DNA of 64,000 bases from Thiomargarita sp. (GTDB lineage Bacteria; Pseudomonadota; Gammaproteobacteria; Beggiatoales; Beggiatoaceae): positions 3,991 through 67,990 of the forward strand of contig DYNP01000012.1 of the NCBI GenBank assembly GCA_020721005.1, written 5' to 3'. The translations under genes and the position numbers were made by a program. Shown piece by piece: positions 20,342 to 43,965 of this stretch (the stretch's first letter is position 1; every line of letters starts with the position of its first letter). The notes beneath the pieces were generated by a model. That model made no database searches, had not been told where the DNA came from, and saw nothing but the letters and a program-made list of their open reading frames with translations.

Positions 20342-20799
20342 TATACCTCTCGAAAAGGTATGCGATCATGAAAAGATGAGAGTTGCCCACCCTACCATTA
20401 TCTGCCATTCAGTTAAGGTACGTTGGAGTGGAAATTTTAGGAGTGGAGGCTTTAGCCGGCCAGCGGTAGGCGCCTTGCAATTTGTCTGTGTGGAGTGATG
20501 CCTACAACTAACCGGCTAAAGCCTCTATTTCAGTATGGATTTTCCTCACTGATTTGTGTGGGGTGATGCTTACAGCTAACCAGCTAAAGCCTCTATTCCA
20601 GTATTGATTTTCCTCACTGATTTGTGTGGGGTGATGCTTACAGCTAACCGGCTAAGCCTCTATTCCAGTATTGATTTTCCTCACTGAATAGTATGGCTGG
20701 AATTGAGTGGGCAACGATAAAGCAGTTGCCCAACCTATCATTAGATTTTCAGCAATTTTATTTTTTCGTATCGCATCATTTACCTTTACAAGAAGTCTA
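20342..20799. mobile_element. MITE-like repeat element 1, ends just before hisB
   Basis: Left end TATACCTCTCGAAAAGGTATGCGATCATG resembles the inverse of the right end, which reads TAGACTTCTTGTAAAGGTA on the minus strand and ends 20 bp before the hisB ATG. Inside are one inward arm GGAGTGGAGGCTTTAGCCGG (from ~20440), outward arms CCGGCTAAAGCCTC in three tandem copies of a ~75-bp unit, and the GAGTGGGCAACGATAAA motif at 20705. No transposase frame is present. The ends match those of the elements at 24.4 and 43.5 kb. Confidence 0.65.
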
Positions 20800-20819
20800 T
20801 TAACCTTTTTGGAAAAACT

Positions 20820-21413
20820 ATGTCTTCTCGCAGTGCTCATATTATTCGTCATACTTTAGAAACACAAATCGCGGTCACACTCAATTTGGATGGGCATGCC
20901 AACGGCCATTTAGACACCGGCATTCCCTTTTTGGAACACATGTTAGACCAAGTGGTTCGGCATAGCCTGATCGACCTTAATGTGGTAGCCATAGGAGACC
21001 TGCACATTGATGCTCATCACACTACAGAAGATATCGGCATCACTCTGGGACAAGCTTTTAAACAGGCGCTGGGAGACAAAAAGGGAATTTATCGTTATGG
21101 CCACGCCTATGTTCCTTTGGACGAAGCTCTGTCCCGGGTGGTCATCGATCTTTCCGGTCGCCCTCATTTGACCTTTCAAGTCCAATTCCCCACCGCTCAA
21201 ATTGGGCAATTTCCAGTTGAACTGTTTAGAGAATTCTTCCAAGGCTTTGTCAACCATGCAGGAATTACATTGCATATCGACAATCTTAGAGGAAGTAACA
21301 GTCATCATATTGCCGAAACACTTTTCAAAGCATTTGGCCGCGCCTTATACATGTCGATCAGCTATCATCCCGCTTTACAAGACAAAATTCCTTCCACAAA
21401 AGGCTGTTTATAA
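20820..21413 (+). CDS. hisB: Imidazoleglycerol-phosphate dehydratase
   Basis: The 197-aa single-domain HisB catalyses the sixth step of histidine synthesis (IGP to imidazole-acetol phosphate). All manganese-binding motifs are visible: FLEHMLDQ (37-44), DAHHTTED (64-71), the [16 protein letters not shown] block (100-114) and SHHIAE (161-166). It lacks the phosphatase domain found in the bifunctional enterobacterial HisB. No other his gene is nearby; only a repeat element precedes it, ending 20 bp before the start, and the ribosome site is weak. Confidence 0.96.
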
Positions 21414-21553
21414 ATTCCCAGTCCAAAACTCATCACTCCGAAGATAAATCGTTGGGTCAGTAACCCAACCTACGCTTACTCTATTTTCCCCTTCTTTCCT
21501 CACCTAGACTGAAAATATTTACTCTGAATTATAAAATACAGGACCACAATTCC

Positions 21554-22885
21554 ATGCAACACGTTGACACCCTCATCTATGCGGGTTGGGTGATTCCCGT
21601 TGAACCGGACAACCTCATCTATGAACAACATGCCATTGCCATTCAAGAAGGTAAAATTCTTGCCATACTTCCTAATAACGAAGCCGTGGGACGCTTTTCC
21701 GCCCGCATCACTCACCGTCTACCCACCCATCTGCTGATTCCCGGTCTCATCAATACTCACACTCATGCAGCCATGGCCTTGCTGAGAGGATTTGCCGATG
21801 ACCTGTCCTTAGAAGACTGGTTAAATACCCGTATTTGGCCAGCGGAACAAGCATTTGTCAATCCAGAATTTATCATTGATGGCACCAAACTGGCCATTGC
21901 TGAAATGTTACGCAGTGGTATCACCTGTTTCAACGACATGTACTTTTTTCCAGATACTCAAGCAGAACTCATTGATCACATTGGAATTCGAGCCACCATT
22001 GGACTTATTCTCCTGGATTTCCCCACCGCTTGGGGCAAAGATTCTGAAGATTATCTTGATAAGGCTAAACAAGTGCATCAGCAATTCAAGGATCACCCGC
22101 TCATTCGTTTGGCTCTTGCGCCTCATGCTCCTTACACCGTTTCTGACACCTCCTTTTTGCGAGGTAAAGAAGTCGCTGGGGAATTGAATTTGCCGATTCA
22201 CATTCATGTGCATGAAACATTGACTGAAATAGAAAATGCCCTTAACCAGTCAGGGCAACGTCCACTTGCCCGCTTGGCCAAACTGGGATTGCTGTCCCCC
22301 AAACTGATGGCAGTCCATGCCACTCATCTTAACCAGGAAGATATCAATTTATTGGCTGAGACTGGGACTCATATCATCCACTGTCCAGAATCCAATCTTA
22401 AATTGGCCAGTGGTTTCTGTCCAGTCACAAAATTACTTAAAGAAGGCATCAATGTGGCATTGGGAACTGATGGAGCAGCCAGCAATGATGATCTGGACTT
22501 ATTAGGAGAAATGCGCACTGCCGCCCTCATTGCCAAAGGCTTAAGTAAAGACGCTCGCAGTTTACCCACATCCATGGCTTTACGTATGGCCACTCTCAAC
22601 GGGGCTAAAGCTTTGGGCATTGACCACCTCACAGGCTCCCTGGTCCCCGGCAAATCAGCTGATATCACTGCCATTGAAATGCACGATATTGAAACTCAAC
22701 CCATTTATAATCCACTGTCTCAACTGGTCTATTCAGTGGGTCGGGACAAAGTGACCGATGTTTGGGTGGCTGGCAAACATTTGTTAAAATCGCGAACTTT
22801 GACCACTTTGGATATTCACGAGATTCGAGCCAAAACTTATCTGTGGCGTGATAAAATTGCGGGACTTTTAAAAAATAATTCCTAG
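21554..22885 (+). CDS. mtaD: MTA/SAH deaminase-like amidohydrolase (TRZ/ATZ family)
   Basis: The 443-aa protein is a metal-dependent amidohydrolase: the H69-T-H71 metal pair in LINTHTHAAM, the GFADDLSLEDWLNTRIWPAE segment typical of methylthioadenosine/S-adenosylhomocysteine deaminases, HIHVHET and AVHATHL carrying further metal His residues, and the Asp motif GTDGAASNDDLDLLGEMR. Members deaminate MTA, SAH or adenosine-related compounds; some act on s-triazines, so the exact substrate is not proven. A SAM-recycling role would fit with metH in the same window. It is separated from hisB by 140 bp. Confidence 0.88.
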   Translation: MQHVDTLIYAGWVIPVEPDNLIYEQHAIAIQEGKILAILPNNEAVGRFSARITHRLPTHLLIPGLINTHTHAAMALLRGFADDLSLEDWLNTRIWPAEQAFVNPEFIIDGTKLAIAEMLRSGITCFNDMYFFPDTQAELIDHIGIRATIGLILLDFPTAWGKDSEDYLDKAKQVHQQFKDHPLIRLALAPHAPYTVSDTSFLRGKEVAGELNLPIHIHVHETLTEIENALNQSGQRPLARLAKLGLLSPKLMAVHATHLNQEDINLLAETGTHIIHCPESNLKLASGFCPVTKLLKEGINVALGTDGAASNDDLDLLGEMRTAALIAKGLSKDARSLPTSMALRMATLNGAKALGIDHLTGSLVPGKSADITAIEMHDIETQPIYNPLSQLVYSVGRDKVTDVWVAGKHLLKSRTLTTLDIHEIRAKTYLWRDKIAGLLKNNS

Positions 22886-22941
22886 AAATACAGCGTCATT
22901 CAATCCTTATCATTAACAAGCAAAAAAAAGCCCCGGTTAGC

Positions 22942-23106
22942 AATATAGGGCGCAATAGCGTTAGCGTATTGCGCCGTACGGAAACACGATAGACCAGGCA
23001 ATTCCCCCAATCCTCGTTTTGTTATGGGTGAACGAGATTAAGAGAGTGACCGTAAATTTGGGGCCAACATGCGGCGCAATACGCTAACACTATTGCGCCC
23101 TATATT
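22942..23106. repeat. 165-bp double-hairpin inverted-repeat element
   Basis: The two ~35-bp ends are inverted copies with one mismatch (left 22942-22976, right 23072-23106), beginning AATATAGGGCGCAATA. Each end is itself palindromic: GGCGCAATA ... TATTGCGCC around GCGTTAGCG. The 95-bp interior has no gene. It resembles a non-autonomous MITE or paired REP unit and sits between the convergent mtaD and gph genes, where it may stop transcription from both sides. Confidence 0.75.
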
Positions 23107-23129
23107 AACTATAAAAACGTTTTTTCCAA

Positions 23130-23786
23130 TTATTGCAATCCCTGTAACCAAGTGGGCAACAAAGCCAGATTGTCTAAACAAACTTTGGGGTGACAGTTGG
23201 ACAATTCAACTTTGGAATGGGCGCCATAAGTGACTGCCACGGCATCTACCCCGGCGGCTTGAGCCATCTGCAAGTCATAAGTGGTGTCTCCTATCATCAC
23301 TGTCTCAGGGGGTAATGTTGCCAGTTCATCCATGATCTCATGTAACATTTGAGGATGGGGTTTCGCCTGAGTTTCCTCAGCACACCGGGTGCTGTCAAAC
23401 AAGGTTTGCAATTGGGTTTCTGCCAAATCTCGATTTAACCCAATGCGACTTTTCCCAGTGGCTATTGCCAATTGATAACCTTGTTGATGTAAAGTGTGTA
23501 AAGTTTCTGCCACATTGGGGAATAATGTCGTGGCAAAAGGATTTTTGTGCAAAAAATGTTCTCGATAACGATTGGCCAACTCAATTCGTTGTTGTTCAGT
23601 GGCTTCGGGATAAAGTTGTTTGATCAAATTGGGTAAACTTAATCCGATCAAATAACTGATATGTTCCTGAGCCCGAGGTTCCAAACCCACTTCAATACTG
23701 GCAGCTTGAAAACTGGAAACAATGCGATTTTGGGAATTCATCAGGGTGCCATCCCAATCAAAAATAAGCAGTTTGTAAGTTTTCAT
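23130..23786 (-). CDS. HAD-family phosphatase, phosphoglycolate-phosphatase-like
   Basis: The 218-aa protein has the HAD motifs in order: I, FDWDGTLMNSQ with nucleophile D10 and D12; II, IATGKS; III, a Lys in EETQAKPHPQM; IV, MIGDTTYDLQMAQAAG. The helical cap after motif I is of the Gph/pyrophosphatase type. Likely substrates are phosphoglycolate or other small phosphoesters or pyrophosphate; the family member is not certain. Its ATG overlaps the stop of the RDD gene (ATGA), so the two are co-translated. Confidence 0.85.
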   Translation of the reverse strand: MKTYKLLIFDWDGTLMNSQNRIVSSFQAASIEVGLEPRAQEHISYLIGLSLPNLIKQLYPEATEQQRIELANRYREHFLHKNPFATTLFPNVAETLHTLHQQGYQLAIATGKSRIGLNRDLAETQLQTLFDSTRCAEETQAKPHPQMLHEIMDELATLPPETVMIGDTTYDLQMAQAAGVDAVAVTYGAHSKVELSNCHPKVCLDNLALLPTWLQGLQ

Positions 23787-24292
23787 ACGAGTAAATTATA
23801 CTCCTTATAACGAATGACCAGGGTGTTGGCTAACTTGTCGTGCCAGCCTTGTTTTTTGGGGTCAAAGGCTACCCAAATAATGCCCAATCCAAATGGGATA
23901 ACAGAGATGATATAGCCCAAATAGCGAATAACGTATTGACGCATAGTGGGTTTGCCTCCGGTGCTTGCATCTACAATTTTAGCGGAGAATATCATTTTAC
24001 CGGGAGTTGCAGAATAGTAGACCCAAAAGACGATGATGACAATTGCCATAGTCAAATCAAACAATAGACCGGAAAGACTATTTTCCAGTAAAATCAAGAG
24101 GGGAATTTCTCCAGTTTCAGAATCGGCAAAGGGAATGAGCAGCAGTACAATGATGAGTAAAATGAGCAGAGAATCAATAATATTGGCTAAGGCTCTCGTC
24201 CAAAAACCCACGTATTCGTAGTCTATTCCCTGTTCTAAAGGAGATGGTCCTAGGGAAGAAGTGGGGGCTTTATAAAAATTAGGTTCAGTCAT
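23783..24292 (-). CDS. RDD-family membrane protein
   Basis: The 169-aa protein carries the RDD pattern: YVGFWTRALANIIDSLLILLIIVLLL (Arg and Asp inside the first membrane segment), a second hydrophobic stretch LTMAIVIIVFWVYYSATPGKMIFSAKIVDASTGGKPT, then YVIRYLGYIISVIPFGLGIIWVAFDPKKQGWHDKLANTLVI, whose W-HDKLA ending is typical. RDD proteins are small membrane proteins of unclear function; a few act in ion transport. It overlaps the HAD phosphatase gene downstream by 4 bp. Confidence 0.88.
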   Translation of the reverse strand: MTEPNFYKAPTSSLGPSPLEQGIDYEYVGFWTRALANIIDSLLILLIIVLLLIPFADSETGEIPLLILLENSLSGLLFDLTMAIVIIVFWVYYSATPGKMIFSAKIVDASTGGKPTMRQYVIRYLGYIISVIPFGLGIIWVAFDPKKQGWHDKLANTLVIRYKEYNLLV

Positions 24293-24371
24293 AGTAGGTT
24301 ATGGGGTAAAAGTGAAGTTTTTCATGTTTTTATATCCGATTAAAGCGTAGTAAATCGTTTTTAATTCTCAT

Positions 24372-25066
24372 TAGACTTCTTGCAAAAGTATGCGATCATG
24401 AAAAAATGAGAGTTGCCCCTCAGTTAAGAAACGTTGGAGTAGAGGCTTTAGCCGGCCAGCGGTAGACCCTTGGAGTGGAGGCTTTAGCCGGCCAGCGGTA
24501 GGTCCTTGGAGTGGAGGCTTTAGCCGGCCAGCGGTAGACCCTTGGAGTGGAGGCTTTAGCCGGCCAGCGATAGGTCCTTGGAGTGGAGGCTTTAGCCGGC
24601 CAGCGGTAGGTCCTTGGAGTGGAGGCTTTAGCCGGCCAGCAGTAGACCCTTGGAGTGGAGGCTTTAGCCGGCCAGCGATAGGTCCTTGCAATTTGTGTAT
24701 GTGGGGTGATGCCTACGGCTGACCGGCTAAAGCCTCTACTCCAAGGTACTTTCTAGAGCTTCTACTCCGCTTAAAGCCTCTACTCCGGCTAAAGCCTCCA
24801 CTCCAAGGTACTTTCTAGAGCTTCTACTCCGCTTAAAGCCTCTACTCCGGCTAAAGCCTCTATTCCAAGGTACTTTTTAGAGCTTCTACTCCGCTTAAAG
24901 CCTCTACTCCGGCTAAAGCCTCTATTCCAAGGTACTTTCTAGAGCTTCTACTCCGCTTAAAGCTTCTACTCCGGCTAAAGCCTCTATTCCAAGGTACTTT
25001 CTAGAACCTCCACTTTCGTATCTCATCTTTATTGAAGAAATTTGAATATCTTCCTACACAAGTCTG
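24372..25066. mobile_element. MITE-like repeat element 2 with a 36-bp array
   Basis: The left end TAGACTTCTTGCAAAAGTAT (24372) is followed by GCGATCATG as in the other elements. From ~24433 a unit of 36 bp beginning GGAGTGGAGGCTTTAGCCGG is repeated head to tail seven times, then a 'TTGCAATTTGTGTATGTGG' spacer leads to inverted arms (CCGGCTAAAGCCTC) and five copies of a ~60-bp unit with GGTACTTTCTAGAGCTTC. The right end is degenerate (CTTTCGTATCTCATC..., CACAAGTCT near 25060), so that border is approximate. The element abuts the 3' end of cysS. Confidence 0.65.
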
Positions 25067-25069
25067 CAG

Positions 25070-26449
25070 TTAAATTTTTCGCCAAGTGGTCTGTTGCCCA
25101 CTGTCTTCAAGTACTATTCCTTGGGCTTTTAAGTAGTCTCGAATGCGATCGGCTTCTGCCCAGTTGCGTTGTTGTCTGGCAATATTTCGATCAGTAATCA
25201 GTTGCTCAATTTCTTCCACCGCTTGGCCTTGTTGAAAAAATTGTTCGGGGTCAGTTTGTAAGAGTCCCAGAATATGTGCCAAGTGAGATAATTCTTGACC
25301 TCTTTGATTGGCTTGGTTGGGATCGGTATTTTTTAGGCGATTGATTTCTTTGGCTAAGTCAAAGAGAACAGCCAGGGCTTCTGGGGTGTTAAAATCATCA
25401 TCCATCGCGGCCAGAAAACTTTGTTGATAAGGGGACTCCGCCATAGGAAAGAAGCCGGGACCTAAGATGCTCAGTCCTCGCAGGGCTGTGTATAAACGGG
25501 TGAGGGCTTGGCGAGCCAATTCTAGGTTTTGTTCTGAGTAATTTAAGGGACTGCGGTAGTGGCTGGTTAAAATAAAGTAACGAATGACTTCTGGAGCATA
25601 GCGTTGTAATACTTCCCGAACGGTGAAAAAGTTGCCCAGAGATTTGGACATTTTTTCTTCATTGATGCGCACAAATCCGTTGTGCATCCAGAGGTTGACA
25701 AAGGGTTCCCCGGTGGCGCCTTCCGATTGGGCAATTTCATTTTCATGGTGTGGGAATTGTAAGTCCATGCCTCCCCCGTGAATGTCGAAGTGATTCCCTA
25801 GGCAGTGGGTGGACATGGCTGAGCATTCAATATGCCAGCCGGGTCGACCCGGTCCCCAGGGGGATTGCCAGTTGGGTTCCCCAGGTTTGGCGGCTTTCCA
25901 AAGGACAAAGTCCAAAGGGTCTTGTTTGGTGGTATTGATTTCAACTCGTTCCCCAGCACGCAATTCTTCCAAGTGTTTGCCTGACAGTTTTCCATAGTCT
26001 TGAAAGCGATTGACTGCGTAACAGATATCGCCTTGTTCAGTGAGATAGGCGTAATGATTATCCAATAATCGTTGAATCATAGCAAGAATTTGGGGAATAA
26101 ATTCGGTGGCCCGGGGCTCTAAATCGGGGCGTAATACTCCTAAAGCATCGGTGTCCTGATACATGGCTTGGATAAAGCGTTGGGTCAGTTGGGTGATGTC
26201 TTCTCGATTTTCTTGGGCGCGGTGGATGATTTTGTCATCGATGTCAGTAATATTACGCACATAGATTACTTCATAGCCTAAATGGCGTAGGTAACGGACG
26301 ACGGTGTCAAATACGACCATGACTCGTGCATGTCCGATATGACAATGGTCGTATACAGTCATACCACAGACATAAAGTCGGACTTTACCAGGCTCTATTG
26401 GGGTAAAAAGTGTTTTTTGTTTGGTCAAGCTGTTGTAAATCACCAACAT
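25070..26449 (-). CDS. cysS: Cysteinyl-tRNA synthetase
   Basis: Starting at 26449 ([12 protein letters not shown], the family's standard N-terminus) the protein is 459 aa; an in-frame ATG at 26512 would add 21 atypical residues. It charges tRNA-Cys. Visible motifs: zinc ligand C28 in [14 protein letters not shown] at 37-40, the [10 protein letters not shown] and [19 protein letters not shown] zinc and cysteine-binding segments, and the KMSKS loop ([12 protein letters not shown]). The C-terminal anticodon domain is complete. It is divergent from the lipoprotein gene. Confidence 0.97.
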
Positions 26450-26578
26450 ATCTTCTATCCTAGTTAAATTAAATGGTGTTAGGTTTGCATGAGTTGTGAA
26501 TGGAAATGGCATTTAGCCATTGTTTTTATCATGCCGCCTGATGTGGGCAAACAATTGACTTTACACGAGACAATCAGT

Positions 26579-27037
26579 ATGCGAACGCTCATTTTATGCA
26601 CATTATGCACGGTGACAGTTATACTGTTACAAGGGTGTATGCCCTCCAGTCGTTCTGGGGCAGTTTACGATCGTGATCAAGCTCGACAGGTACAAACCGT
26701 TGAAATGGGTACAGTGGAAAGTGTACGCGGTGTTCAAATCGAAGGTGTTCAAAGCGGGGTGGGTTCCGTTGGAGGTGCAGTTATTGGGGCTATTGCCGGC
26801 AGTGGAGTCGGTGGGGGTCGCGGATCTGCCATTGCGAGTACTGTCGGAGCAATTGCCGGTGGACTTGTCGGCAGTGCCATTGAGGAAGGCACCACCCGTA
26901 AGGATGCACTGGAAATTACCGTCCGTTTGGACAGTGGGCGGATTATTTCCTTGGTACAAGAAGCAGATGTGAGTTTTCAAACTGGTCAAAGAGTGCGAGT
27001 TTTAACCAGTCCCACAGCGACCCGAGTCTCTAATTGA
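26579..27037 (+). CDS. Glycine-zipper outer-membrane lipoprotein (SlyB-like)
   Basis: From the ATG at 26579 the 152-aa protein has a lipoprotein signal peptide (MRTLILCTLCTVTVILLQGC, lipobox LQGC with lipidated C20) and a glycine-zipper core GGAVIGAIAGSGVGGGRGSAIASTVGAIAGGLVGSAIEEG, followed by a short beta tail VRLDSGRIISLVQEAD and VRVL, as in SlyB/Pcp/OmpA-associated lipoproteins. It probably sits in the outer membrane and affects envelope integrity. A longer frame from 26489 lacks signal-peptide logic. Its stop overlaps the start of rsmJ. Confidence 0.88.
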   Translation: MRTLILCTLCTVTVILLQGCMPSSRSGAVYDRDQARQVQTVEMGTVESVRGVQIEGVQSGVGSVGGAVIGAIAGSGVGGGRGSAIASTVGAIAGGLVGSAIEEGTTRKDALEITVRLDSGRIISLVQEADVSFQTGQRVRVLTSPTATRVSN

Positions 27038-27816
27038 TTCCCATTATACCTGCCAATTTTGAATTGACCAAAACCGCTGAGACTTTAGCAGCTGACTTTC
27101 AACTTCCCCTGTTAGATTGGCAAGCGGTTGACCTTCCTCATTTTATACTTCGATTAAGTTCTGAACGTTTGGAATTGCAAGATACTCAAACGGGTTTAGG
27201 TTGTTTGTCCACAGAATTTGTGAATGGACCTTTGGGTTATCGACTTCGGCATGGGGGAGGTTATCAACAACCCTTGGCCAAGGCGGTGGGGGTCAAAGCC
27301 AATCGGCATCCTTTTGTATTGGATCTCACTGCCGGCTTAGGGAGAGAAGCCTTTGTGTTGGCAGGGTTGGGATGTCAAGTAGAGATGGTGGAACGTTGTT
27401 CCGCAATTGCCGCCTTATTGGGAGAAGGTTTGCAGCGGGCAGCCCAGGATGCAAGGAGTGCTGAAATTGTGAATACTCGATTGCATTTAATTCACGGCGA
27501 GGCGCAAACTCAATTGTCTTGGTTGCAGCAGGGGGCAAACTCTGATATTTTGGGACCGGAGGTTATTTATTTAGATCCCATGTATCCTGAGAGGAAGAAG
27601 TCCGCGAAGGTAAAAAAGGAGATGCGCATGTTACAAGCCATTGTTGGAATGGATGAAGATGGGGGACAATTATTGGAACAGGCATTGTCCTGTCCGGTGA
27701 AAAGAGTGGTGGTTAAACGTCCCCGGTATGCTCCCTGTTTAAACAGAATTCAGCCTGATTTTTCAGTGGGGACTGAAAATACCCGGTATGATGTTTACAG
27801 TAATTTTAAGCAGTAG
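27034..27816 (+). CDS. rsmJ: 16S rRNA m2G1516 methyltransferase
   Basis: The 260-aa protein matches RsmJ (YhiQ): SAM motif FVLDLTAGLGREAFVLAGLG, VERCSAIAALLGEGLQRA, the catalytic DPMYPERKKSAKVKKEM, and the VKRPRYAP block near the end. No ATG is available at the N-terminus; translation likely begins at TTG 27034, which overlaps the preceding stop (TTGA), consistent with coupling to the lipoprotein gene. Its role is to methylate G1516 in the small ribosomal subunit. Confidence 0.95.
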   Translation: MIPIIPANFELTKTAETLAADFQLPLLDWQAVDLPHFILRLSSERLELQDTQTGLGCLSTEFVNGPLGYRLRHGGGYQQPLAKAVGVKANRHPFVLDLTAGLGREAFVLAGLGCQVEMVERCSAIAALLGEGLQRAAQDARSAEIVNTRLHLIHGEAQTQLSWLQQGANSDILGPEVIYLDPMYPERKKSAKVKKEMRMLQAIVGMDEDGGQLLEQALSCPVKRVVVKRPRYAPCLNRIQPDFSVGTENTRYDVYSNFKQ

Positions 27817-27892
27817 GACGAACCGGCAATAAGAAGCTCATTCTGAAAACCTACCCAGTTTTTGAAAATCGGGCAAGTCTGCTGATACCATA

Positions 27893-27917
27893 GAAAACCC
27901 TCCTTAAAAAGGAGGGC
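27893..27917 (-). terminator. Intrinsic terminator of the FlgO-like gene
   Basis: On the minus strand CCCTCCTT (27916-27909) pairs with AAGGAGGG (27905-27898) around a 3-nt loop and is followed by TTTT. It lies 14 bp past the stop of the FlgO-like gene; on the plus strand it could also stop transcription from rsmJ. Confidence 0.75.
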
Positions 27918-27930
27918 AAGTAACAAAGAA

Positions 27931-29589: not shown

Positions 29590-30330
29590 ATGATAAGATC
29601 AGAGGTTGCATTATTGGCGGATAAAGTCCCCATTCCCCCATCCGGTTGGTTAGCCCTAAATGGAGGATTTTTGGTTGCCTTGGAACTCTTTCGTTGTCCA
29701 GAAACGCCCTGGCTTGCCCATTTTGGGGTAACTCTGATTCATGAAACCGGGCACTGGATCAGTGGCTGGCTATTTGGTTACCCCTCTTTTTTATACTTTG
29801 ATGACCAATTCACGCAAGGGATGACTGTACATAGCCCGTTTAATGAAAGTATTCTAATGGGCATCTACCTGATTATGGGGGGAAGTATAGGACTACCTCA
29901 CCACCCACTGCTCACCCGTCTGAAATGGATTTTAGTAATTGTCGTATACAGCCTGATTGTATTCAGTGACCTCTCCAAATCCGTCATTTTAAGCATGGGA
30001 CATGGCGCAGAATTAGCGCTGGCGGGAGGCCTATTGTATCTAACGGTGACCAATCCTCGTTTTTGGATCTGCCTGATCTGCGCAACTCTGGGCTTTTACC
30101 TGATCATGGTTAATCTATCCTTAGCTCATCAACTGCTCTACGATGACTATTATCAAGTACTGTACCTTTATCAAGGCAAACATGATCTGGCCCAACTTGC
30201 CTACCGCCATTTTCATGGTCAATTAACGCCGGTAGCCACACTCCTATTCTGGTCCTGTTTTTTACCCCTCAGTACTGTCATTATTAAAATTATGAGTGTA
30301 GCACTGGGGAATAAAACTAAACATCGGTAG
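29590..30330 (+). CDS. Integral membrane protein with HETGH motif, possible M50-like protease
   Basis: The 246-aa protein is strongly hydrophobic with about five or six membrane segments. In an early one the sequence TLIHETGHWISGWLFGYP carries HExxH, the zinc-binding motif of metallopeptidases; intramembrane M50 proteases place it inside a helix in this way. A later segment has SMGHGAELALAGGLLYL, with a His, Glu and Gly-rich stretch that could complete the site. The NPDG-type third-ligand motif of classic site-2 proteases is absent. Function is therefore unproven. No operon partner; the upstream 238 bp have no gene. Confidence 0.6.
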   Translation: MIRSEVALLADKVPIPPSGWLALNGGFLVALELFRCPETPWLAHFGVTLIHETGHWISGWLFGYPSFLYFDDQFTQGMTVHSPFNESILMGIYLIMGGSIGLPHHPLLTRLKWILVIVVYSLIVFSDLSKSVILSMGHGAELALAGGLLYLTVTNPRFWICLICATLGFYLIMVNLSLAHQLLYDDYYQVLYLYQGKHDLAQLAYRHFHGQLTPVATLLFWSCFLPLSTVIIKIMSVALGNKTKHR

Positions 30331-30412
30331 AGACGCGATTAATTGTCCTGTTGGTAAGAGACGCGATTACCGGTAGATTGGAATGGAGGCTTTAGCCGGA
30401 TCGCGTCTCTAC
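30326..30412. repeat. Nested repeat: GTAGAGACGCGATT palindrome containing a 36-bp-family unit
   Basis: The ends GTAGAGACGCGATT (30327) and ATCGCGTCTCTAC (30400-30412) form the palindrome seen whole at 63023. Between them lie a second AAGAGACGCGATTACC copy and the string TGGAATGGAGGCTTTAGCCGG of the other repeat family, so one family has inserted into, or recombined with, the other. It precedes the CYTH-CHAD gene by about 40 bp. Confidence 0.7.
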
Positions 30413-30450
30413 TCACATCTATTTAAAACAAAAAACTAAAGAACCCTACA

Positions 30451-35578: not shown

Positions 35579-37477
35579 ATGAACACTCATCACTGGGACA
35601 TTACCCAATCCCGCACTCTGTACAATATAAACCACTGGGGAGACGGTTACTTTGATATCAATTCTCAAGGAGAAGTCACTGTTTCCCCTGCCCCTTCCAC
35701 TCCCAATCAGATCAATCTTTTTGAACTGGCGCAAAACTTTACCGCCCAAGGTCTTTCCTTACCAGTTTTAGTTCGATTTCCAGACATCTTACATGATCGA
35801 GTCCGCCAATTATGTGAAGCCTTTAAACAAGCCATGGAAGAAGAATGCTACCAAGCCAGTTATACCGCTATTTACCCGATCAAAGTCAATCAGCAACACC
35901 ATGTTATCAAAGAAATTCTCAATTCCGGGCAAAAACAGGTGGGGCTAGAAGCGGGGAGTAAATCAGAATTAATGGCCATCATCGCCTTAGCCCCTCATGA
36001 TCAAACCATACTTATTTGCAATGGTTACAAAGATCGGGAATATATTCGGCTGGCCCTGATAGCACAACAAATGAATTTGCAACCTTACTTGGTCATAGAA
36101 AAATTATCAGAGTTGCAACTGATTGTTGAAGAAAGTCAACGATTTGGAGTCACTCCTCATTTGGGAATTCGAGTGCGATTAGCCTCGGTTGCCAGCGGCA
36201 AATGGCAAAATTCTGGAGGGGAAAAGTCTAAATTTGGTCTTTCAGCAGCTCAAGTTTTACAAGCAGTTGAGCACTTACAAAAAACCAATCTACTCAGTGC
36301 ATTACAACTTATGCACTTTCATATTGGTTCTCAAGTTGCCAATATACGAGATGTTCAAAATGCTTTACGCGAGGCAGCTCGTTACTACATGGAATTGCAA
36401 CAGTTGAAAGTGCCCATTCAATATGTTGATGTGGGAGGAGGATTGGGCGTGGATTATGAAGGGACTGGTTCTCGCAATCCCTGTTCAATCAATTACAGTA
36501 TACAAGAATATGCCAATAATATTGTACATGAATTCAGCGTCTTATGTCATGCCCATCAACTTCCCTATCCCAACTTAATGACAGAATCAGGTCGAGCCAT
36601 GACGGCCCACCATGCGGTCCTTATTACCAATGTGATCGATGTGGAAGCCGCTCCCGGCCATCAAGTTCCAGAGCCAGTGTTGGAAGATGAACCTGCGATC
36701 ATACGAGATTTGGGTTATGGATTGATTCATCTCGATCAACGCTCTGCCTTGGAAGCTTATCATGACGCGATCTATTGGCTCAGTGAAGCCCATACAATGT
36801 TCATACATGGGGTCTTGAATTTGACTGAAAAGGCACGGGCTGAACAACTTTATTATGCCACTCTCCAAAAAGTCTATTCCCTGCTACAATCTCAGTCTCA
36901 TTCACGCAATTATCGGGAAGTGATTGATGATATTCAACAAAAATTGGCAAACAAGTATTATTGCAATTTTTCTCTATTCCAATCTGCCCCAGATGCTTGG
37001 GCGATTGACCAATTGTTCCCGATCATGCCCTTACACCGACTCAATGAAAAGCCGGAATATCGAGCAACTTTGCAAGATCTGACTTGCGATTCAGATGGCC
37101 AGTTTGAACACTATGTAGATGGGGAAGGGGTGGGCAGCAGTCTCCCTCTACACAAACCACTTTTAGAGCAACCTTACTTGTTGGGAATATTTTTAGTGGG
37201 TGCTTATCAAGAAATCTTGGGCGACATGCACAATTTATTTGGAGATACCTGCTCAGTGAATGTTCATCTTACAAAGGAGGGAGGATATGAATGGATTGAA
37301 CCCTTGGAAGGTGATACAGTACAAACTATGCTGCATTACGTGAATATTGACACTCGTTTTTTGCGCAATGCTTATCGTAAACGACTCCAGGCCGCTCCTT
37401 TAACCTCAGACCAACGTCAAAGCTATCTCCGAGAATTAGAAGCCGGGTTAGTCGGTTATACCTATTTGGAATCTTGA
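35579..37477 (+). CDS. speA: Biosynthetic arginine decarboxylase
   Basis: From the ATG at 35579 (MNTHHWDITQSRTLYNI) the protein is 632 aa, the usual SpeA length. It decarboxylates arginine to agmatine for polyamine synthesis, using PLP bound at K102 (YPIKVNQQ). Other family blocks are GLEAGSKSELMAIIAL, MHFHIGSQVANIRD, VDVGGGLGVDYEGTGS, TESGRAMTAHHAVLITNV, and the C-terminal LFQSAPDAWAIDQLFPIMPLHRLNEKP and LVGAYQEILGDMHNLFGDT. A longer frame from 35549 overlaps the WD40 gene and is less likely. Confidence 0.97.
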   Translation: MNTHHWDITQSRTLYNINHWGDGYFDINSQGEVTVSPAPSTPNQINLFELAQNFTAQGLSLPVLVRFPDILHDRVRQLCEAFKQAMEEECYQASYTAIYPIKVNQQHHVIKEILNSGQKQVGLEAGSKSELMAIIALAPHDQTILICNGYKDREYIRLALIAQQMNLQPYLVIEKLSELQLIVEESQRFGVTPHLGIRVRLASVASGKWQNSGGEKSKFGLSAAQVLQAVEHLQKTNLLSALQLMHFHIGSQVANIRDVQNALREAARYYMELQQLKVPIQYVDVGGGLGVDYEGTGSRNPCSINYSIQEYANNIVHEFSVLCHAHQLPYPNLMTESGRAMTAHHAVLITNVIDVEAAPGHQVPEPVLEDEPAIIRDLGYGLIHLDQRSALEAYHDAIYWLSEAHTMFIHGVLNLTEKARAEQLYYATLQKVYSLLQSQSHSRNYREVIDDIQQKLANKYYCNFSLFQSAPDAWAIDQLFPIMPLHRLNEKPEYRATLQDLTCDSDGQFEHYVDGEGVGSSLPLHKPLLEQPYLLGIFLVGAYQEILGDMHNLFGDTCSVNVHLTKEGGYEWIEPLEGDTVQTMLHYVNIDTRFLRNAYRKRLQAAPLTSDQRQSYLRELEAGLVGYTYLES

Positions 37478-37543
37478 ATTCAACGTCATGCCTGCTGAAT
37501 ACCCCCTAATCCTTCCTTATTCTTCAGTGAGGAAGAATTCCCA

Positions 37544-38125
37544 TTGGAGTGGAGGTTTTTTGGAGTGGAGGCTTTAGCCGGTAGATTGGAATAGAGGCTT
37601 TAGCCGGTAGATTGGAATGGAGGCTTTAGCCGGCCAGCGGTAGGCCCTTGCAATTTGTGTATGTGGAGTGATGCCTACCGCCGGCCGGCTAAAGCCTCCA
37701 CTCCAATTGAGTATGTGGAGTGATGCCTACCGCTGGCCGGCTAAAGCCTCCACTCCAATTGGGTATGTGGGGTGATGCCTACGGCTGACCGGCTAAAGCC
37801 TCCACTCCAATTGGGTGTGTGGAGTGATGCCTACCGCCGGCCGGCTAAAGCCTCCACTCCAATTGGGTGCGTGGGGTGATGCCTACCGCTGGCCGGCTAA
37901 AGCCTCCACTCCAATTGGGTGTGTGGAGTGATGCCTACCGCTGGCCGGCTAAAGCCTCTACTCCAAGGTACTTTCTAGAGCATCCACTCCAATTGGGTGT
38001 GTGGGGTGATGCCTACCGCCGGCCGGCTAAAGCCTCCACTCCAGCATACCTTAACTGGATGGCAGATAATAACAGGGTGGGCAATCCCCCTCTTTTCATT
38101 ACCCCATACTTTTGCAAGAGTTCTA
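37544..38125. mobile_element. MITE-like repeat element 3 with ~60-bp array
   Basis: Two or three forward arms (GGAGTGGAGGCTTTAGCCGG, GGAATGGAGGCTTTAGCCGG) are followed, after a TTGCAATTTGTGTATGTGG spacer, by about seven copies of a ~60-bp unit combining CCGGCTAAAGCCTCCACTCC with TTGGGTGTGTGGAGTGATGCC. The right flank (GGCAGATAATAACAGGGTGGGCAA, then CATACTTTTGCAAGAGTTCTA ending at 38125) is the same as in the other elements, inverted. I could not find a matching left terminus, so that border is uncertain. The flanking 37478-37543 and 38126-38227 hold no gene. Confidence 0.6.
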
Positions 38126-38227
38126 CCATTAAATCGGCTTCCATAGGTCAGTCCATCCTACCACTATCGCGGTAAATCTTTCAATCTATTCCCCTATTCA
38201 ACTGATGAATCTGTTTTGGGATCAATA

Positions 38228-41200
38228 ATGTCTTCCCACAACCCGCAAAATACGTTTTCCGCTTTACAAGAGCGCCTGCTGGATCAAGTGCTGCTATTGG
38301 TGGCTCTGGTCTTAACTCCGAGTAGCCTCTTGTTGATAACACGCAGCTCAATGATAGGCTGGTCTCTAAACAGCACTTTACAACTTACCCTATACATTAC
38401 CTACTTGATTCTACTCTTAAAACGCAGAAAATTCAGTTATTTGGGTCGAACCTATCTATTGCTTACCCTACTTTGGCTTTCTGGAACCTTAAGTCTATTC
38501 TTAGTGGGACCTTTGCTGGAAAATAAAAGTTTACTCTTTGTGCTCACTTTATTTTCCATGCTATTTTTACCCACAGTTTTAGCTTGGCTCATGGTCGGAT
38601 TGGGGTCCTTGCTCGTTATCACCGTTGGCATCCTAGTATTTTGGTATGACTGGCACTTTTTAGAACCTCTAACTTTTTTCCAACATCCCATCACCTGGTT
38701 ACTGGGTGCCTATCATTACATTGCCTTATCTGCCATTTCTGCCTACATCATTTGGCAAATGGTCAACAATTTACGATCCAACTTAGAACATACCCAACTA
38801 CAATCCGAATCCTTACATTTTGCCCTGTCCCGACAACAAGCCATTTTCTCCAGCAGCAACGCGGCCATTGCCATCATCAAAGCTCGCCGATTTGTAGAAA
38901 TCAATACTTACCTTGCCAGTTTATTGGGATATTCTAAAGAAGAATTAATTAACCAACCCACTCGTTTACTCTATCATTCCGATCAAGACTACGAACGATT
39001 TGGGCAACAAGTGTATCAACACTTGGCTTCTCATGGCAATTTTACCACTGAATATCCCTTTCGACATAAATCGGGTAAAGAAATATGGACCTATCTCAGC
39101 GTCAGCCTGCTCCCTTCGGGAAAAGACACCCTTAGCACTGAAATCGTCTTATTAGCCATCGATATCTCCCATCGTAAACAAGTAGAATCTGCTTTACAAG
39201 AAAGTGAGTTACGCTTTCGCCAATTTGCGGATAATACTGACGCTGTATTCTGGATTCGTACCCCGGACAAAATTCTCTATATCAATCAAGCCTATGAAAA
39301 ACTTTGGGGACGCAGCAGAGAAAGCTTATACCTCTCTCCAAACTCATTTATCGAAACTATACACCCTGATGATCGTCTTCGGATCATACAAGCCAGCCAA
39401 ATCCAAGCCGAATATTCCTCCTCATTTGATGAAGTTTATCGCATCGTGCGTCCCAATGGAGACATTCGCTGGATCCATGCTCGCGGCTACCCAGTTCCTG
39501 GTCCCGAACTTCGCTTTACAGGAATTGCCAATGACATTACACAACGAAAAGTAGCAGAATTACACCTTAAAGCCAGTGAACAACGTTTAAAACGCCTGGG
39601 AGATAACCTACCAGAAGGTGCAATTCACCAACTTGTGCATTCTGCCGAAGGCAAAGCCTCTTTCACCTACATAAGTGCCGGTATCGAACGTATATTGGGT
39701 ATTACCCCGGAACGGGTACTTACTGATCCCATGCACCTGTACAAACTCATTCATCCTGAAGATTTAAACCAAGTATTGGCTGCAGAATTGGAATCCAAAC
39801 GCCAACTGACCCCATTTGATCAAGTAGTTCGTCATTACACCATAAATGGAGAATTGCGTTGGCTATATATCCGTTCCACTCCCTACCGAAAAGAAGATGG
39901 AAGCACCTGGTGGGATGGCTTTGCCATGGACATTACCCGCCAAAAACAAATTGAACGAGAACTGATCCAAGCTCGCGAATCTGCTGAAACAGCCAATCGG
40001 GCTAAAAGTGCCTTCATTGCCAACATGAGTCATGAATTGCGCACTCCACTGAATGCAATATTGGGTTTTGCCCAAATTCTCATGCAAGACAGCAATTTAA
40101 ACGAAATTCAACGCAACCAAGTGCACAGCATTCAACGAGGAGGGGAATATCTCTTAACCCTGATCAGCGACATTCTGGACCTTGCTAAAATCGAAGCGGG
40201 CTATTTTGACCTATTCCCAGAGACTTGTGACACCCACAGCCTATTCCATGAACTCAATTACATGTTTGAAATTCGAGCCACCCAAAAAAGCCTCTATTTT
40301 CAATATGAAACTGCCACCCCATTACCCTATGCCATATGCTGTGACAACAAGAGACTGCGCCAAATTCTCCTCAACCTATTAAGCAACGCCATAAAATTTA
40401 CCGAATGTGGCACCGTTACCCTACGTACAGGCTATTCCAAACACCCAATTCTTTCCAATCAGAGCACAGAAACGGAAATAAACCTCCCCACTGACCAACT
40501 GTGGATAGAAGTAACAGACAGCGGCATTGGCATCGCTCCCGAAGACATTGACAAAATTTTTCAACCTTTTCAACAAACTGGCAGCACTCGTTATCGAGCC
40601 CAAGGCACCGGATTGGGACTTTCCATCACCTACCGCTTGGTAGAAGCCATGGGAGGAAAATTGCAAGTCAACAGCACTCTTGGTAAGGGAAGTACTTTTC
40701 GTGTGGAAATTCCCGTATCTGAAGTCATCACTGATCCTCAGTCCCTTCCTTCGCCCACCCAACTCAACATTATAGGCTATCAGTGCCCAACTCGAAACAT
40801 TCCCCTCTGCATTTTAGAAGTTGATGATGAAACCGACAACCGACTGGTCCTGCGTTACCTATTGGAACCCCTGGGTTTCACCCTTATTGATGCCGAAAAT
40901 GGACAACGTTGTTTAGAACTCCTACAAGAAGAAAACTGCCAACCGGATATCATTCTCATGGATCTGCGCATGCCCAAATTAGACGGTCTACAAACCACTC
41001 GAATCTTACGGTCCCGAGGATTTAATCTTCCCATCATAGTGCTCAGCGCGGCTAACTTTGCGGAAGATCGAGCAGCCAGTTCCGCGGCAGGCAGCAATGC
41101 TCACCTTGCCAAACCTGTTCATCTACCGGAACTGCTCAACACCTTACAACAACTGTTGCCCCTAGAATGGGAATATTCTTCCCCCTTGCCCCAAACAGAC

Positions 41201-41407
41201 GCCTCCACCCCAGAAGTGTTAAACCCAGAACAACTCACACAATTTTTATATCTCACCGAGATAGGAGATATGGATGGCTTAGAAATCTTTGCTCAACAAC
41301 TCAGGATCAGTCACCCCTACTTTTCCAAGAAATTGAGCCTGTTAGCCAATGCATTTGAACTGGGGAAAATTTACGAATTGGCCAGGGAATATGGGAGCAC
41401 ACTTTAA
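38228..41407 (+). CDS. Multi-PAS hybrid sensor histidine kinase
   Basis: From the ATG at 38228 (a TTG lies 12 bp earlier) the protein is 1059 aa. It has about five membrane helices (first ~175 residues, no large periplasmic domain), three PAS/PAC modules (about 200-325, 330-450 and 455-585), HisKA with H602 ([14 protein letters not shown]), a full HATPase (NLLSNAIKF, VTDSGIGI, GTGLGLSI), and a receiver with D912 (IILMDLRMPKLDG) and a KP Lys, plus ~110 residues after it. It probably senses a redox or small-molecule cue internally and passes phosphate to a separate regulator. No response-regulator gene is adjacent. Confidence 0.92.
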   Translation: MSSHNPQNTFSALQERLLDQVLLLVALVLTPSSLLLITRSSMIGWSLNSTLQLTLYITYLILLLKRRKFSYLGRTYLLLTLLWLSGTLSLFLVGPLLENKSLLFVLTLFSMLFLPTVLAWLMVGLGSLLVITVGILVFWYDWHFLEPLTFFQHPITWLLGAYHYIALSAISAYIIWQMVNNLRSNLEHTQLQSESLHFALSRQQAIFSSSNAAIAIIKARRFVEINTYLASLLGYSKEELINQPTRLLYHSDQDYERFGQQVYQHLASHGNFTTEYPFRHKSGKEIWTYLSVSLLPSGKDTLSTEIVLLAIDISHRKQVESALQESELRFRQFADNTDAVFWIRTPDKILYINQAYEKLWGRSRESLYLSPNSFIETIHPDDRLRIIQASQIQAEYSSSFDEVYRIVRPNGDIRWIHARGYPVPGPELRFTGIANDITQRKVAELHLKASEQRLKRLGDNLPEGAIHQLVHSAEGKASFTYISAGIERILGITPERVLTDPMHLYKLIHPEDLNQVLAAELESKRQLTPFDQVVRHYTINGELRWLYIRSTPYRKEDGSTWWDGFAMDITRQKQIERELIQARESAETANRAKSAFIANMSHELRTPLNAILGFAQILMQDSNLNEIQRNQVHSIQRGGEYLLTLISDILDLAKIEAGYFDLFPETCDTHSLFHELNYMFEIRATQKSLYFQYETATPLPYAICCDNKRLRQILLNLLSNAIKFTECGTVTLRTGYSKHPILSNQSTETEINLPTDQLWIEVTDSGIGIAPEDIDKIFQPFQQTGSTRYRAQGTGLGLSITYRLVEAMGGKLQVNSTLGKGSTFRVEIPVSEVITDPQSLPSPTQLNIIGYQCPTRNIPLCILEVDDETDNRLVLRYLLEPLGFTLIDAENGQRCLELLQEENCQPDIILMDLRMPKLDGLQTTRILRSRGFNLPIIVLSAANFAEDRAASSAAGSNAHLAKPVHLPELLNTLQQLLPLEWEYSSPLPQTDASTPEVLNPEQLTQFLYLTEIGDMDGLEIFAQQLRISHPYFSKKLSLLANAFELGKIYELAREYGSTL

Positions 41408-41608
41408 TTCACCCCCTAAACCCCCTCATAAAGAAAAGCCAAAGTGGAGTGGACAACTTTTTTTCGTCGCCCACCATCTGATTACTGAAAACAACAATGC
41501 AAACAGGGGGGCTCCCCACCATTCTGAGAATTCTGACTCAGACAAAAAAGAACCCTGCCCCCAATGAAGAAAAGCAAGGAAAATTAAGGCGGTTTCTCCC
41601 CCCAATTT

Positions 41609-43198
41609 TTAATGAGGTATGACTTTAACTAACTGAAAACTCAAAGGTTCTCGATCAGGTATCAAATTCAGAAGTACTTCATATAACAAGGGACCGCCTT
41701 CCACTAATACCTCAACGCTTGGCAAATACAATAAGCCATTTTCCAAAGCAAAATGAGCACAACTGCCATTGACAGTTCCCTCATCTAACAAAATTGCCTG
41801 TTCCAAACTAAAAATCATCTCCTCAGCTGAGGATAAACTTAAGCGGGCTTCAAACAGTCCCAACCCCGGTACTTGCACCGTTGGTAGATACAAACTTCCC
41901 GTAGCCATTTCAAATTGCACTTCCTGTTCAACAATTTGGCTCACAAATACATCAAACGCCTGATTATCTTCCCCTTTTACCAATTTGGGATCAAGGGAAC
42001 TGAAGGCAATGGCACATCCTTGCTCTGCAATCGCCGACCCAGTTGCAAATGGTCCCCAAGTCGTTTCCAAACCTTGCCAATCCAAATTAACCCGTCTTAC
42101 TTCCTGAGTTTGTTGATCATAACGAAACACATCCACCAGTCCATTCCCATCTTCACTTAGCCAAGGCTGGGCAGATTCAAAATTGAGATAACGACCATTT
42201 TGGGAAATGGTAACTTGGGAAGTGGTTTGACCGGTTTCTATCCCTGAATCAGGCGGAATTATCTCAGTACTTTGAACCACTTGCATGTCTCGCATGATAA
42301 CCCCCGAACTTGGAGGAGATTTTTCATCCAAAGAATCATTCCACAGCGATTCAAATACCACATAACGTCCATCTCCAGAAATTCGTGGCGCAAAGGCCGA
42401 TCGCTTGGCCACTTGGCCGGTAGAATCTACACTGACTAATTGCGTTTCTCCAGTTGACAAATTATATCGATAAATGTTTGAATAACCGAAGGTATCTTCG
42501 GCAGTCAATTGAGCCAAGGATTCGAAAACCGCAAACTGTCCATCAGCCGACATCATGGGTCGTCGGGCTTCCAAATCGTTGGGCTTACCTTGAACAGAGA
42601 GACTGATTAATTGGATTGTGCCAGTGAAATTGTCGTGTACAAAAATCCTAGGGACTGCTTGTTTTAAACCAGCGACTAAGTTTGTAGCCGTGGATTCAAA
42701 GACGATATAACGTCCATCTCCAGAAATGCTTGGGGCACTGGAATTTCCATTACCTTCTTCTCCTTGGGAACTGAGACTGATTCTAGATAAAGTTTCCGTT
42801 GACCATTCATAACGGAAAATGTCAGCAACCTGATTGTTATCCCCAGCCACCAAATTACTCGCAGATGAGCTAAATACCAAATAACGACCTTCAGCTGATA
42901 ATGTGGGACTGTCACTGTCTCCATTGCCAATAATTGGCAAATAAATAAGATTTTTCAACCAGTTGTCATAGACATAAACATCCAATGACATCGGATTATC
43001 TCCGGCCATTAAATTACTGGCAAAACTGTAAAAACTAATATAACGACCATTGGCAGAAATCCCACCGACAAAACTGTCTGCATTGCCCGCCAATCCTTGA
43101 GCATTTACACTGATATTTCGGATAAAGCCCAAACTTTGTAAAGGCCAAACGGTGATTAACCAACTACCTAAAATAACAACATTTACTAAAAATTTCAT
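41609..43198 (-). CDS. Secreted TolB/PD40-type beta-propeller protein
   Basis: The 529-aa protein starts with a signal peptide (MKFLVNVVILGSWLITVWP) followed by about seven repeats of ~50-60 residues with the consensus 'S-x-DGRYIVFES-A-NLVAGD-N-x-DIFRYD-T', as in TolB-like PD40 propellers. The last ~110 residues are a different, beta-rich region with two similar halves (ATGSLYLPTVQVPGLGLFEARL and ENGLLYLPSVEVLVEGGPLLYEVLL). It is probably periplasmic or surface-exposed and may bind calcium or a ligand at the Asp-rich turns. Function unknown; it stands alone, convergent with the hybrid kinase gene. Confidence 0.82.
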   Translation of the reverse strand: MKFLVNVVILGSWLITVWPLQSLGFIRNISVNAQGLAGNADSFVGGISANGRYISFYSFASNLMAGDNPMSLDVYVYDNWLKNLIYLPIIGNGDSDSPTLSAEGRYLVFSSSASNLVAGDNNQVADIFRYEWSTETLSRISLSSQGEEGNGNSSAPSISGDGRYIVFESTATNLVAGLKQAVPRIFVHDNFTGTIQLISLSVQGKPNDLEARRPMMSADGQFAVFESLAQLTAEDTFGYSNIYRYNLSTGETQLVSVDSTGQVAKRSAFAPRISGDGRYVVFESLWNDSLDEKSPPSSGVIMRDMQVVQSTEIIPPDSGIETGQTTSQVTISQNGRYLNFESAQPWLSEDGNGLVDVFRYDQQTQEVRRVNLDWQGLETTWGPFATGSAIAEQGCAIAFSSLDPKLVKGEDNQAFDVFVSQIVEQEVQFEMATGSLYLPTVQVPGLGLFEARLSLSSAEEMIFSLEQAILLDEGTVNGSCAHFALENGLLYLPSVEVLVEGGPLLYEVLLNLIPDREPLSFQLVKVIPH

Positions 43199-43462
43199 TT
43201 CAATACCCTATTCGCTTTTAACCATTCATCCCCATCATAAACAACCTGACAAAATTTGTCCAGATACCTTATGATCTTCTCATTCCCCTTAAAAAGCGGA
43301 AATTGGGGCACCTCCTCTCTTTCCGGAGAACAATTTTCCTCTTTTTCTACGCTGAAAATCAATACTTCTTCGCCTATTTTTCCTTTTCAAGGAGGAACAG
43401 AGTGCCATTTTCCGCTATTTCTTCTTATTTCAGTCATCAAACAAATATATTCAAACATGCAT

Positions 43463-43965
43463 TAGACCTCTTGCAAAAGTACATGATGCGATAAGGATAA
43501 GATACGAAAAAATAAAAGGGAAATCCCCGTTGGAGTGGAGTTGGAATAGAGGCTTTAACCGGAGTGGAGGCTCTAGAAAGTACGTTGGAATAGAGGCTTT
43601 AACCGGAGTGGAGGCTCTAGAAAGTACGTTGGAATAGAGGCTTTAGCCGGTCAGCCGTAGGCATCACCCCACGTACGCAAATTGCAAGATCCTACCACTG
43701 GCCGGCTAAAGCCTCCACTCCAAGGACCTATCGCTGGCCGGCTAAAGCCTCCACTCCAAGGACCTACCACTGGCCGGCTAAAGCCTCTACTCCAAGAACC
43801 TACCACTGGACGGCTAAAGCCTCTACTCCAAGGACCTATCGCTGACCGGCTAAAGCCTCTACTCCAAGGACCTATCGCTGGCCGGCTAAAGCCTCCACTC
43901 CAACGTTTCTTAACTGAGCGACAACTCTCATTTTTTCATGATCGCATACTTTTGCAAGAGATCTA
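43463..43965. mobile_element. MITE-like repeat element 4, complete with inverted ends
   Basis: The left end TAGACCTCTTGCAAAAGTA (43463) and the right end, which reads TAGATCTCTTGCAAAAGTAT on the minus strand (ending 43965), are inverted copies with one mismatch over 19 bp. This is the clearest member of the family. Inside are two GGAGTGGAGGCTCTAGAAAGTAC units, a GTAGGCATCACCCCACGTACGC turn, and six CCGGCTAAAGCCTC units spaced 36 bp. No transposase is encoded, so mobilisation would need a related IS elsewhere. It ends 25 to 58 bp before the next kinase gene. Confidence 0.75.

Follow-up and report, generated by a model that had tools for sequence, protein, structure and literature searches.

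Here we describe, in a 64,000-nucleotide stretch of the Thiomargarita sp. genome (GenBank assembly GCA_020721005.1, contig DYNP01000012.1, positions 3,991 to 67,990; hereafter 'the window'), four copies of an element that we consider very likely to be a non-autonomous miniature inverted-repeat transposable element (MITE) of composite origin: both ends of an insertion sequence (IS) of the IS5 family would have captured a palindrome similar to repetitive extragenic palindromic (REP) sequences, whose arms would then drive inversion of the loop between them and local amplification. MITEs with IS ends are a known kind of element; what goes beyond an ordinary MITE here is that the arms form separate arrays and that the loop occurs in both orientations.

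A genome-wide family of nested palindromes

Each element is built around a 20-base arm, GGAGTGGAGGCTTTAGCCGG, that is present in plus and minus orientation on the two sides of a loop, with end sequences of two types (L and R) outside. The four elements, with the basis of each assignment in brackets, are:

Element A, 20343..20798, minus strand: R end at left and L end at right, both degenerate; a single plus arm and the loop precede three 68-bp repeats that bear minus arms; ATT duplicated at 20340-20342 and 20799-20801 (sequence, tandem-repeat search, cluster C76:24335-24788, flank check).
Element B, 24373..25031 (right border approximate), minus strand: R end at left (24373, after ATT), seven plus arms with a period of 36 bp, then the loop and minus arms with a period of 62 bp, L end truncated near 25031 (sequence, tandem-repeat search, cluster parse, flank check).
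Element C, 37523..38124 (left border approximate), plus strand: L end at left, truncated near 37523, three plus arms with a period of 26 bp, then the loop and minus arms with a period of mostly 52 bp, R end closing at 38124 and followed by ACC (sequence, tandem-repeat search, cluster parse, flank check).
Element D, 43464..43964, plus strand, complete at 501 bp: between the L end and the R end lie three plus arms with a period of 44 bp, the loop in reverse and six minus arms with a period of 36 bp; ATT duplicated at 43461-43463 and 43965-43967 (sequence, cluster parse, flanks, loop test, folding).

Within the window the arm has 38 matches at up to three mismatches, against none in 100 dinucleotide shuffles. 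The end motif is only weakly above chance there (six matches against 1.63 expected at up to three mismatches, a number reached by 2 of 100 shuffles), and its weight therefore comes from the host assembly as a whole (4,053,091 bases in 133 contigs), where the 18-base end has 230 matches at up to two mismatches and its reversed control has none. The same assembly contains 584 exact copies of the arm (280 + 304) and 1,228 matches (632 + 596) at up to two mismatches. The four window elements are thus members of one genome-wide family, and the shared ends and flanking motifs that an initial annotation of the window had reported at four loci are all present. The loci hold; the starting points given for them (20342 and so on) have to be shifted, as the first bases of the element are AGAC and the T before them is the last base of a 3-bp ANT duplication. 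The separate nature of the palindrome, the two loop orientations and the apparent start of a transposase gene in the L end, all treated below, go beyond that annotation.

Stretches around listed ends and listed arms, 66 further stretches among them, were parsed into 102 clusters; the part of this sample picked by ends is biased toward intact ends. Both ends were recognized in 48 clusters, one end in 34 and none in 20, and the order of plus arms followed by minus arms is kept in 78 of the 102, with 1 to 12 arms per side. The L and R types, modelled from 53 and 50 sequences, have the subterminal sequences AGACCTCTTGCAAAAGTAAATGATGCGATAAAGATGAGATACGAAAAAATAAAAGGGAAA and AGACCTCTTGCAAAAGTATGCGATCATGAAAAAATGAGAGTTGCCCCTCAGTTAAGATACGTTGGAGTGG, respectively; TATGCGATCATGAAAA / GAGAGTTGCC form part of the R end. 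Every two-ended copy joins unlike ends (27 L/R, 21 R/L, zero L/L or R/R), and these copies consist of 221-788 bp of arms, loop and ends with no transposase inside; the only open reading frames overlapping elements B and D have 103-106 codons and lie within the arrays. One part of the sample is independent of the ends: of the first 100 listed exact arms, 98 were covered, and these fall into 36 clusters. Nine of these have an end as both first and last feature and 12 have an end that does not close both borders.

Element D had no match in the plasmids searched, the arm and the R end had none in the viral contigs searched, and Rfam gave no match within the window at gathering scores. Literature searches, including a text search for pieces of the arm, returned no description of the family among open-licence papers, whose supplements were not searchable.

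Insertion by transposition with a 3-bp duplication

The outer flanks were compared in the 37 two-ended copies whose termini align from model position 1 or 2. Identical 3-bp flanks were found in 29 of them, compared with a mean of 12.05 and a maximum of 22 in 10,000 shuffled pairings; 28 of the 29 equal flanks read ANT and one reads AAG. Element A, which is not among the tested copies, likewise has ATT on both sides. Duplication frames of TA and TNA were also considered and rejected because ANT explains the equal outer base found three places out on both sides. These flanks directly show insertion with a 3-bp stagger, and the copies are products of transposition. The MITE-like nature proposed in the initial annotation is borne out by the shared borders and by this duplication, and the target-site duplications that it recommended looking for are present.

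The ends probably derive from an IS5-family source

Among 42 genomes of the same bacterial family, the end is found at up to one mismatch in seven, the host included, and several of these occurrences are short inverted-repeat elements or fragments. Two genomes place the end beside remnants of an IS. In G033, three contigs start inside an IS whose last codons, FRILKERYRNRRKRFSLRFNLIAAIHNLELQFTS-stop (C-terminus ...RYRNRRKRFSLRFNLIAAIHNLELQFTS-stop), are directly followed by the identical 17-bp end; in G019, the identical 17-bp end is followed by MKYEKAKELKKDDFKR at offset 32. Since the L consensus of the host reads MRYEKIK at offset 33, the L end appears to retain the first codons of a transposase gene. 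Roughly 50 bp is left of each IS end.

The C-terminus of the G033 IS matches 5 of the 42 genomes, with 44 matches in G021 and zero in the host genome. Among 24 loci inspected in G021, the right end (AGACCTCTTGCAAAATAAG and variants) is visible in 22, and in 19 of these it is followed by ANT; one 898-bp copy (L248, 730-1627) has MNYEKLKVLSNERFKR at its start and ACT on both sides. A fragment from this genome matches the profiles DDE_Tnp_1 (5.9e-16) and DDE_Tnp_4 (6.4e-16), and scores 1.7e-24 against the IS5 family NF033581, its 86.7 bits lying below the full-length cut-off of 140. Judged by ends, target and profile matches, the source type is assigned to an IS5-family insertion sequence making a 3-bp ANT duplication; the ANT target would place it, tentatively, in the ISL2 subgroup. 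An IS5-like source had been offered as one possibility in the initial annotation, and the ends do prove to be common to IS5-family elements of the same bacterial family. The IS with matching ends that it recommended looking for was seen, for the exact end, as fragments: the identical 17 bp stands beside IS remnants in G033 and G019, and the host yielded no intact source.

Profile searches of the host gave no PF13359 match, one PF01609 gene (L198) lacking such ends and four IS5 fragments. When transposase loci from six genomes were compared with the end, allowing five mismatches, a single locus, L193, proved to hold it and was rejected as source because that end belongs to a neighbouring MITE. 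Related ends, GAGCCTCTTGCAAAA, flank a broken IS on both sides at L207, and the ends at L206, L221 and L225 read AGACATCTTTCC.

The palindrome is a separate, REP-like repeat

Among 57 genomes taken as relatives, the arm occurs in two, the host and G007. The latter contains 1,523 arms (760 + 763) and no end at up to one mismatch; its hairpins consist of GGAGTGGAGGCTTTAGCCGGCCGGCGGTAGGC, a loop of about 25 bases and the complement, and many are bordered by TGCCATTAAGTTAAGG...TACGTT. The host R end contains CAGTTAAGATACGTTGG, which resembles this outer motif, and the L end contains, further in, GGGAAATCCCCGTTGG, which resembles the motif on the other side of the G007 hairpins. Owing to these G007-like motifs within both host ends, the composite looks like a palindrome placed in an internally deleted IS.

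Exact arms were also found, among the matches listed, in Thiomargarita sp. SulCav and in metagenome-assembled genomes titled Chloroflexi, Chloroflexia, Anaerolineae or Caldilineales. In five of the listed genomes other than Thiomargarita sp. SulCav, the number of arms with no more than two mismatches ranges from 13 to 243, arranged in pairs, arrays or singly, and among 301 genomes from the phylum of one carrier, three match at up to one mismatch, that carrier counted. On these comparisons we classify the palindrome as a REP-like repeat, separate from the MITE ends, patchy in distribution and high in copy number. Transfer, shared ancestry with loss, convergence or binning errors may each account for the patchiness.

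It could be argued that the whole family consists of REP sequences, or of the bacterial interspersed mosaic elements (BIMEs) that they form, moved as single strands by a Y1 transposase (REP-associated tyrosine transposase, RAYT), and that the supposed ends are merely conserved flanks. High copy number, intergenic position, hairpin formation and the Y1 genes themselves, two in the host and one in G007, agree with this, as does the occurrence of the palindrome in G007 without MITE ends. One host Y1 gene (L261, on C67) is moreover flanked at 1830-1920 by palindromes, AACGGCTTTAGCCGTTAC and ACGGCTGAAGCCGTT, that hold GGCTTTAGCC and GGCTGAAGCC, stretches of ten bases equal or nearly equal to the arm, GGCTTTAGCC being common to the arm. 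However, none of the three Y1 loci contains the arm at up to four mismatches, and at L260 (708-1281 and 1877-1973) the G007 gene is flanked by a 49-bp tandem array of a different palindrome (GTAGGGTGGATTAAGCG...; GTAGGGTGGATTAAGCGAAGCGTATCCACC), in both orientations. A GTAG (or CGTC) tag at the palindrome end was not found in the arm and stem, where GTAG lies inside the stem. The ANT duplication and the fixed L and R ends argue further against RAYT-driven movement, a combination that is not known from single-strand transposition of REPs. We therefore regard this account as very unlikely. The case against it concerns the MITE composite and not the movement of the free palindrome, which, given the ten-base likeness at L261, may have arisen from a REP.

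An arm without MITE ends also occurs in the window, for example:

Lone arm with one mismatch and without MITE ends, 30380..30399, plus strand: interrupts a partly doubled palindrome at 30330-30415 with AGAGACGCGAT/ATCGCGTCTCT arms (GTAGAGACGCGATTA...ATCGCGTCTCTAC).

The interrupted palindrome resembles a GTAG-tagged REP. Another inverted repeat, TATAGGGCGCAATAGCGTTAGCGTATTGCGCC ... GGCGCAATACGCTAACACTATTGCGCCCTATA, lies between two genes at 22945-23110; a MITE copy elsewhere in the genome (L125) adjoins similar sequence.

Arrays grow locally on either arm

Three or more arms follow one another at equal spacing in 66 runs, which lie in 49 clusters and fall into 18 periods, mostly 26, 36 and 44. 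For periods 26, 36, 43 and 44, each with at least three arrays, spacers of one array are 0.88-0.97 identical, whereas those of different arrays with equal period are 0.59-0.70 identical. Where both arms of a cluster carry arrays, the periods differ in 14 of 15 cases, the fifteenth being an alternating 99-bp repeat. The arrays arose locally, each arm on its own. Growth by tandem duplication, as first suggested, is thus upheld, with the correction that it is not confined to one arm: either arm grows with its own period.

The alternating repeat (host C20:113040-113682) comprises five arms, plus and minus in turn, spaced 99 bp apart and lacking MITE ends. At two other host loci, C44:156832-157471 and C111:6560-7339, whole hairpin units recur every 200 bp and 192 bp, respectively, in a higher-order tandem repeat; at the first of these, an R end follows each unit.

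The loop occurs in both orientations

Read in the L-to-R direction, 21 of the 48 two-ended copies have a forward loop, 25 a reverse loop and 2 an unclear one; where one orientation fits, the other fails within 10 mismatches. When 46 copies are placed on a tree by their joined ends, loop orientation requires 16 changes, close to the mean of 15.4 for shuffled labels; a value as low is reached in 370 of 500 shuffles for one label and in 345 of 500 for the other, and bootstrap trees give 15-17. Loop orientation thus shows no relation to the end tree, itself weak, and part of this lack of clustering is due to the tree's poor resolution.

Two or a few old subfamilies with opposite loops, each amplified without any ongoing inversion, would offer another explanation. 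It draws on the weakness of the tree, which also counts against continuing inversion: 6 of the 43 inner branches are starred, the bootstrap had not settled, and the starred branches force only 5 changes. Yet each of the two main end groups contains both orientations (9 and 6; 16 and 15), and the number of changes equals that of shuffled labels in the bootstrap trees as well. Exchange between copies of opposite orientation would yield L/L and R/R copies, and their absence speaks against such exchange as the main cause of loop reversal. Taken together, we think old subfamilies an unlikely explanation, albeit one of some weight.

The position of array types was compared across 43 nested copies. 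The counts by end side (L:R) are 9:1 for 44-bp, 4:9 for 36-bp and 11:9 for 26-bp arrays; by loop side they are 4:6, 8:5 and 14:6. Only the 44-bp ratio of 9:1 differs from even at p below 0.05 (p = 0.021, uncorrected for six tests). The placement of 44-bp arrays fits inversion at the innermost arms; the 36-bp and 26-bp types do not settle it, and it tells against inversion that, among the three common types, a clear tie to an end is seen for 44-bp arrays alone, the 26-bp type leaning to a loop side.

Folding, gene context and possible host function

The very long stem ascribed to each element in the initial annotation agrees with folding of element D as DNA (z = -11.1); further folds gave z = -11.9 and -6.7. 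Gene context could be classified for 90 of the 102 clusters (six had short flanks and six were left over), and 89 of the 90 lie between predicted genes, 54 in tandem, 24 convergent and 11 divergent; the remaining cluster, within a gene, consists of a single weak match to the arm. The 47 intervals of the window itself, based on crude calling of open reading frames, provide a background of 30 tandem, 9 convergent and 8 divergent.

An alternative is that a host function, for example as a two-way transcription terminator or a stabilizer of mRNA, maintains the palindrome, with the MITE secondary. The very stable folds and the intergenic position, convergent and divergent intervals included, favor this, and inner-stem covariation in 33 G007 hairpins exceeds that of shuffles (23 cells against a mean of 8.2 and a maximum of 16). 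In contrast, 39 host hairpins show no covariation above chance (6 cells against a shuffled mean of 12.3; pairing 0.795 against 0.815), so that a conserved RNA function was rejected, and repair of palindromes could yield covariation without function. The orientation background comes from the 47 crudely called intervals of the window, and the number of arms ranges from 1 to 12 per side. Selection for a host function seems to us distinctly improbable; it is plausible that any hindrance of transcription is a side effect of the strong hairpins.

Proposed mechanism and implications

In the composite model, the palindrome would have entered once between the two ends of an internally deleted IS5-family element, and an IS5 transposase acting in trans would have spread the product, its autonomous source since lost or lying outside the assembly. 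Recombination between the inverted arms, or hairpin intermediates formed by them, could then have inverted the loop repeatedly, while slippage or template switching within an arm would multiply that arm. No selected host function need be assumed: strong hairpins may impede read-through, and copies would persist mainly between genes.

Several observations weigh against this model. The single capture is itself inferred. An equal duplication is absent in 8 of the 37 tested copies. The complete 898-bp G021 copy diverges from the end after 15 bases, and its reading frame is interrupted by a stop; in L240, another spanning copy, the two flanks are unequal (ATT/ACC). Searches by profile and by C-terminus revealed no complete transposase with the family's ends in the host genome, and in the genomes examined the exact 17-bp end was seen only beside IS fragments, never in a complete copy. 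Twenty-four of the 102 clusters deviate from the plus-then-minus order, lone arms, cut clusters and repeated hairpins among them. Finally, 15 of the 36 clusters in the end-independent sample have no recognizable end (ends below the E-value limit would escape), so that many arms stand outside recognizable MITEs and either never came in one or are no longer in one.

A wider reading, which we advance tentatively and hold to be somewhat less probable than its negation, is that an IS5 MITE took up one palindrome family, which reaches high copy number in a small set of unrelated lineages (Beggiatoaceae, Chloroflexota), and that in the host this palindrome is continually rearranging, the loop inverting via its own arms and each arm breeding arrays. 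If this reading is true, hundreds of host loci make up a natural archive of how unstable palindromes behave within a living bacterium. Bacteria do not usually maintain long inverted repeats stably; here one genome keeps some 1,200 arms, many belonging to nested palindromes as long as 788 bp, with separate arrays and loop orientations, so that palindrome-driven duplication and inversion are open to study from sequence alone. The composite also shows how a REP-like repeat can gain a new route of spread, riding inside a MITE moved by a DDE transposase, and supplies a parent type for a MITE family in the Beggiatoaceae, where an earlier report identified no parents for the abundant MITEs (PMC4853749).

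Comparison with known systems

That report describes abundant MITEs, for which no parent IS was found, in Candidatus Thiomargarita nelsonii (PMC4853749). They share with the present family a host in the Beggiatoaceae, abundance and hairpin formation, and differ in the repeats described: the hupL MITE has 10-bp direct and 19-bp inverted repeats and the dsrA MITE a TATAG direct repeat, unlike the 3-bp ANT found here. The RUP element of Streptococcus pneumoniae, a proposed MITE of IS630-Spn1, is similarly short and devoid of transposase, with many intergenic copies, IS-like ends and a duplication of fixed type, but it has a TA target and an IS630 parent, in contrast to the ANT target, IS5-family ends and large variable palindrome array of this family (PMC2229807). 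REP/BIME systems with RAYT resemble it in their high-copy intergenic palindromes with oppositely oriented arms, and GTAG REPs are reported from Proteobacteria and Chloroflexi (PMC3733652); the family described here differs in having no GTAG at the foot of the arm, in its long variable arm arrays and in being carried within a DDE-type MITE. IS5-family elements (NCBIfam NF033581/NF033580), whose ISL2 group is listed at about 0.9-1.0 kb (PMC3196728), are matched by the G021 relative in its 898 bp, inverted ends, 3-bp ANT duplication and IS5-type transposase; they carry that transposase, whereas the element described here has none.

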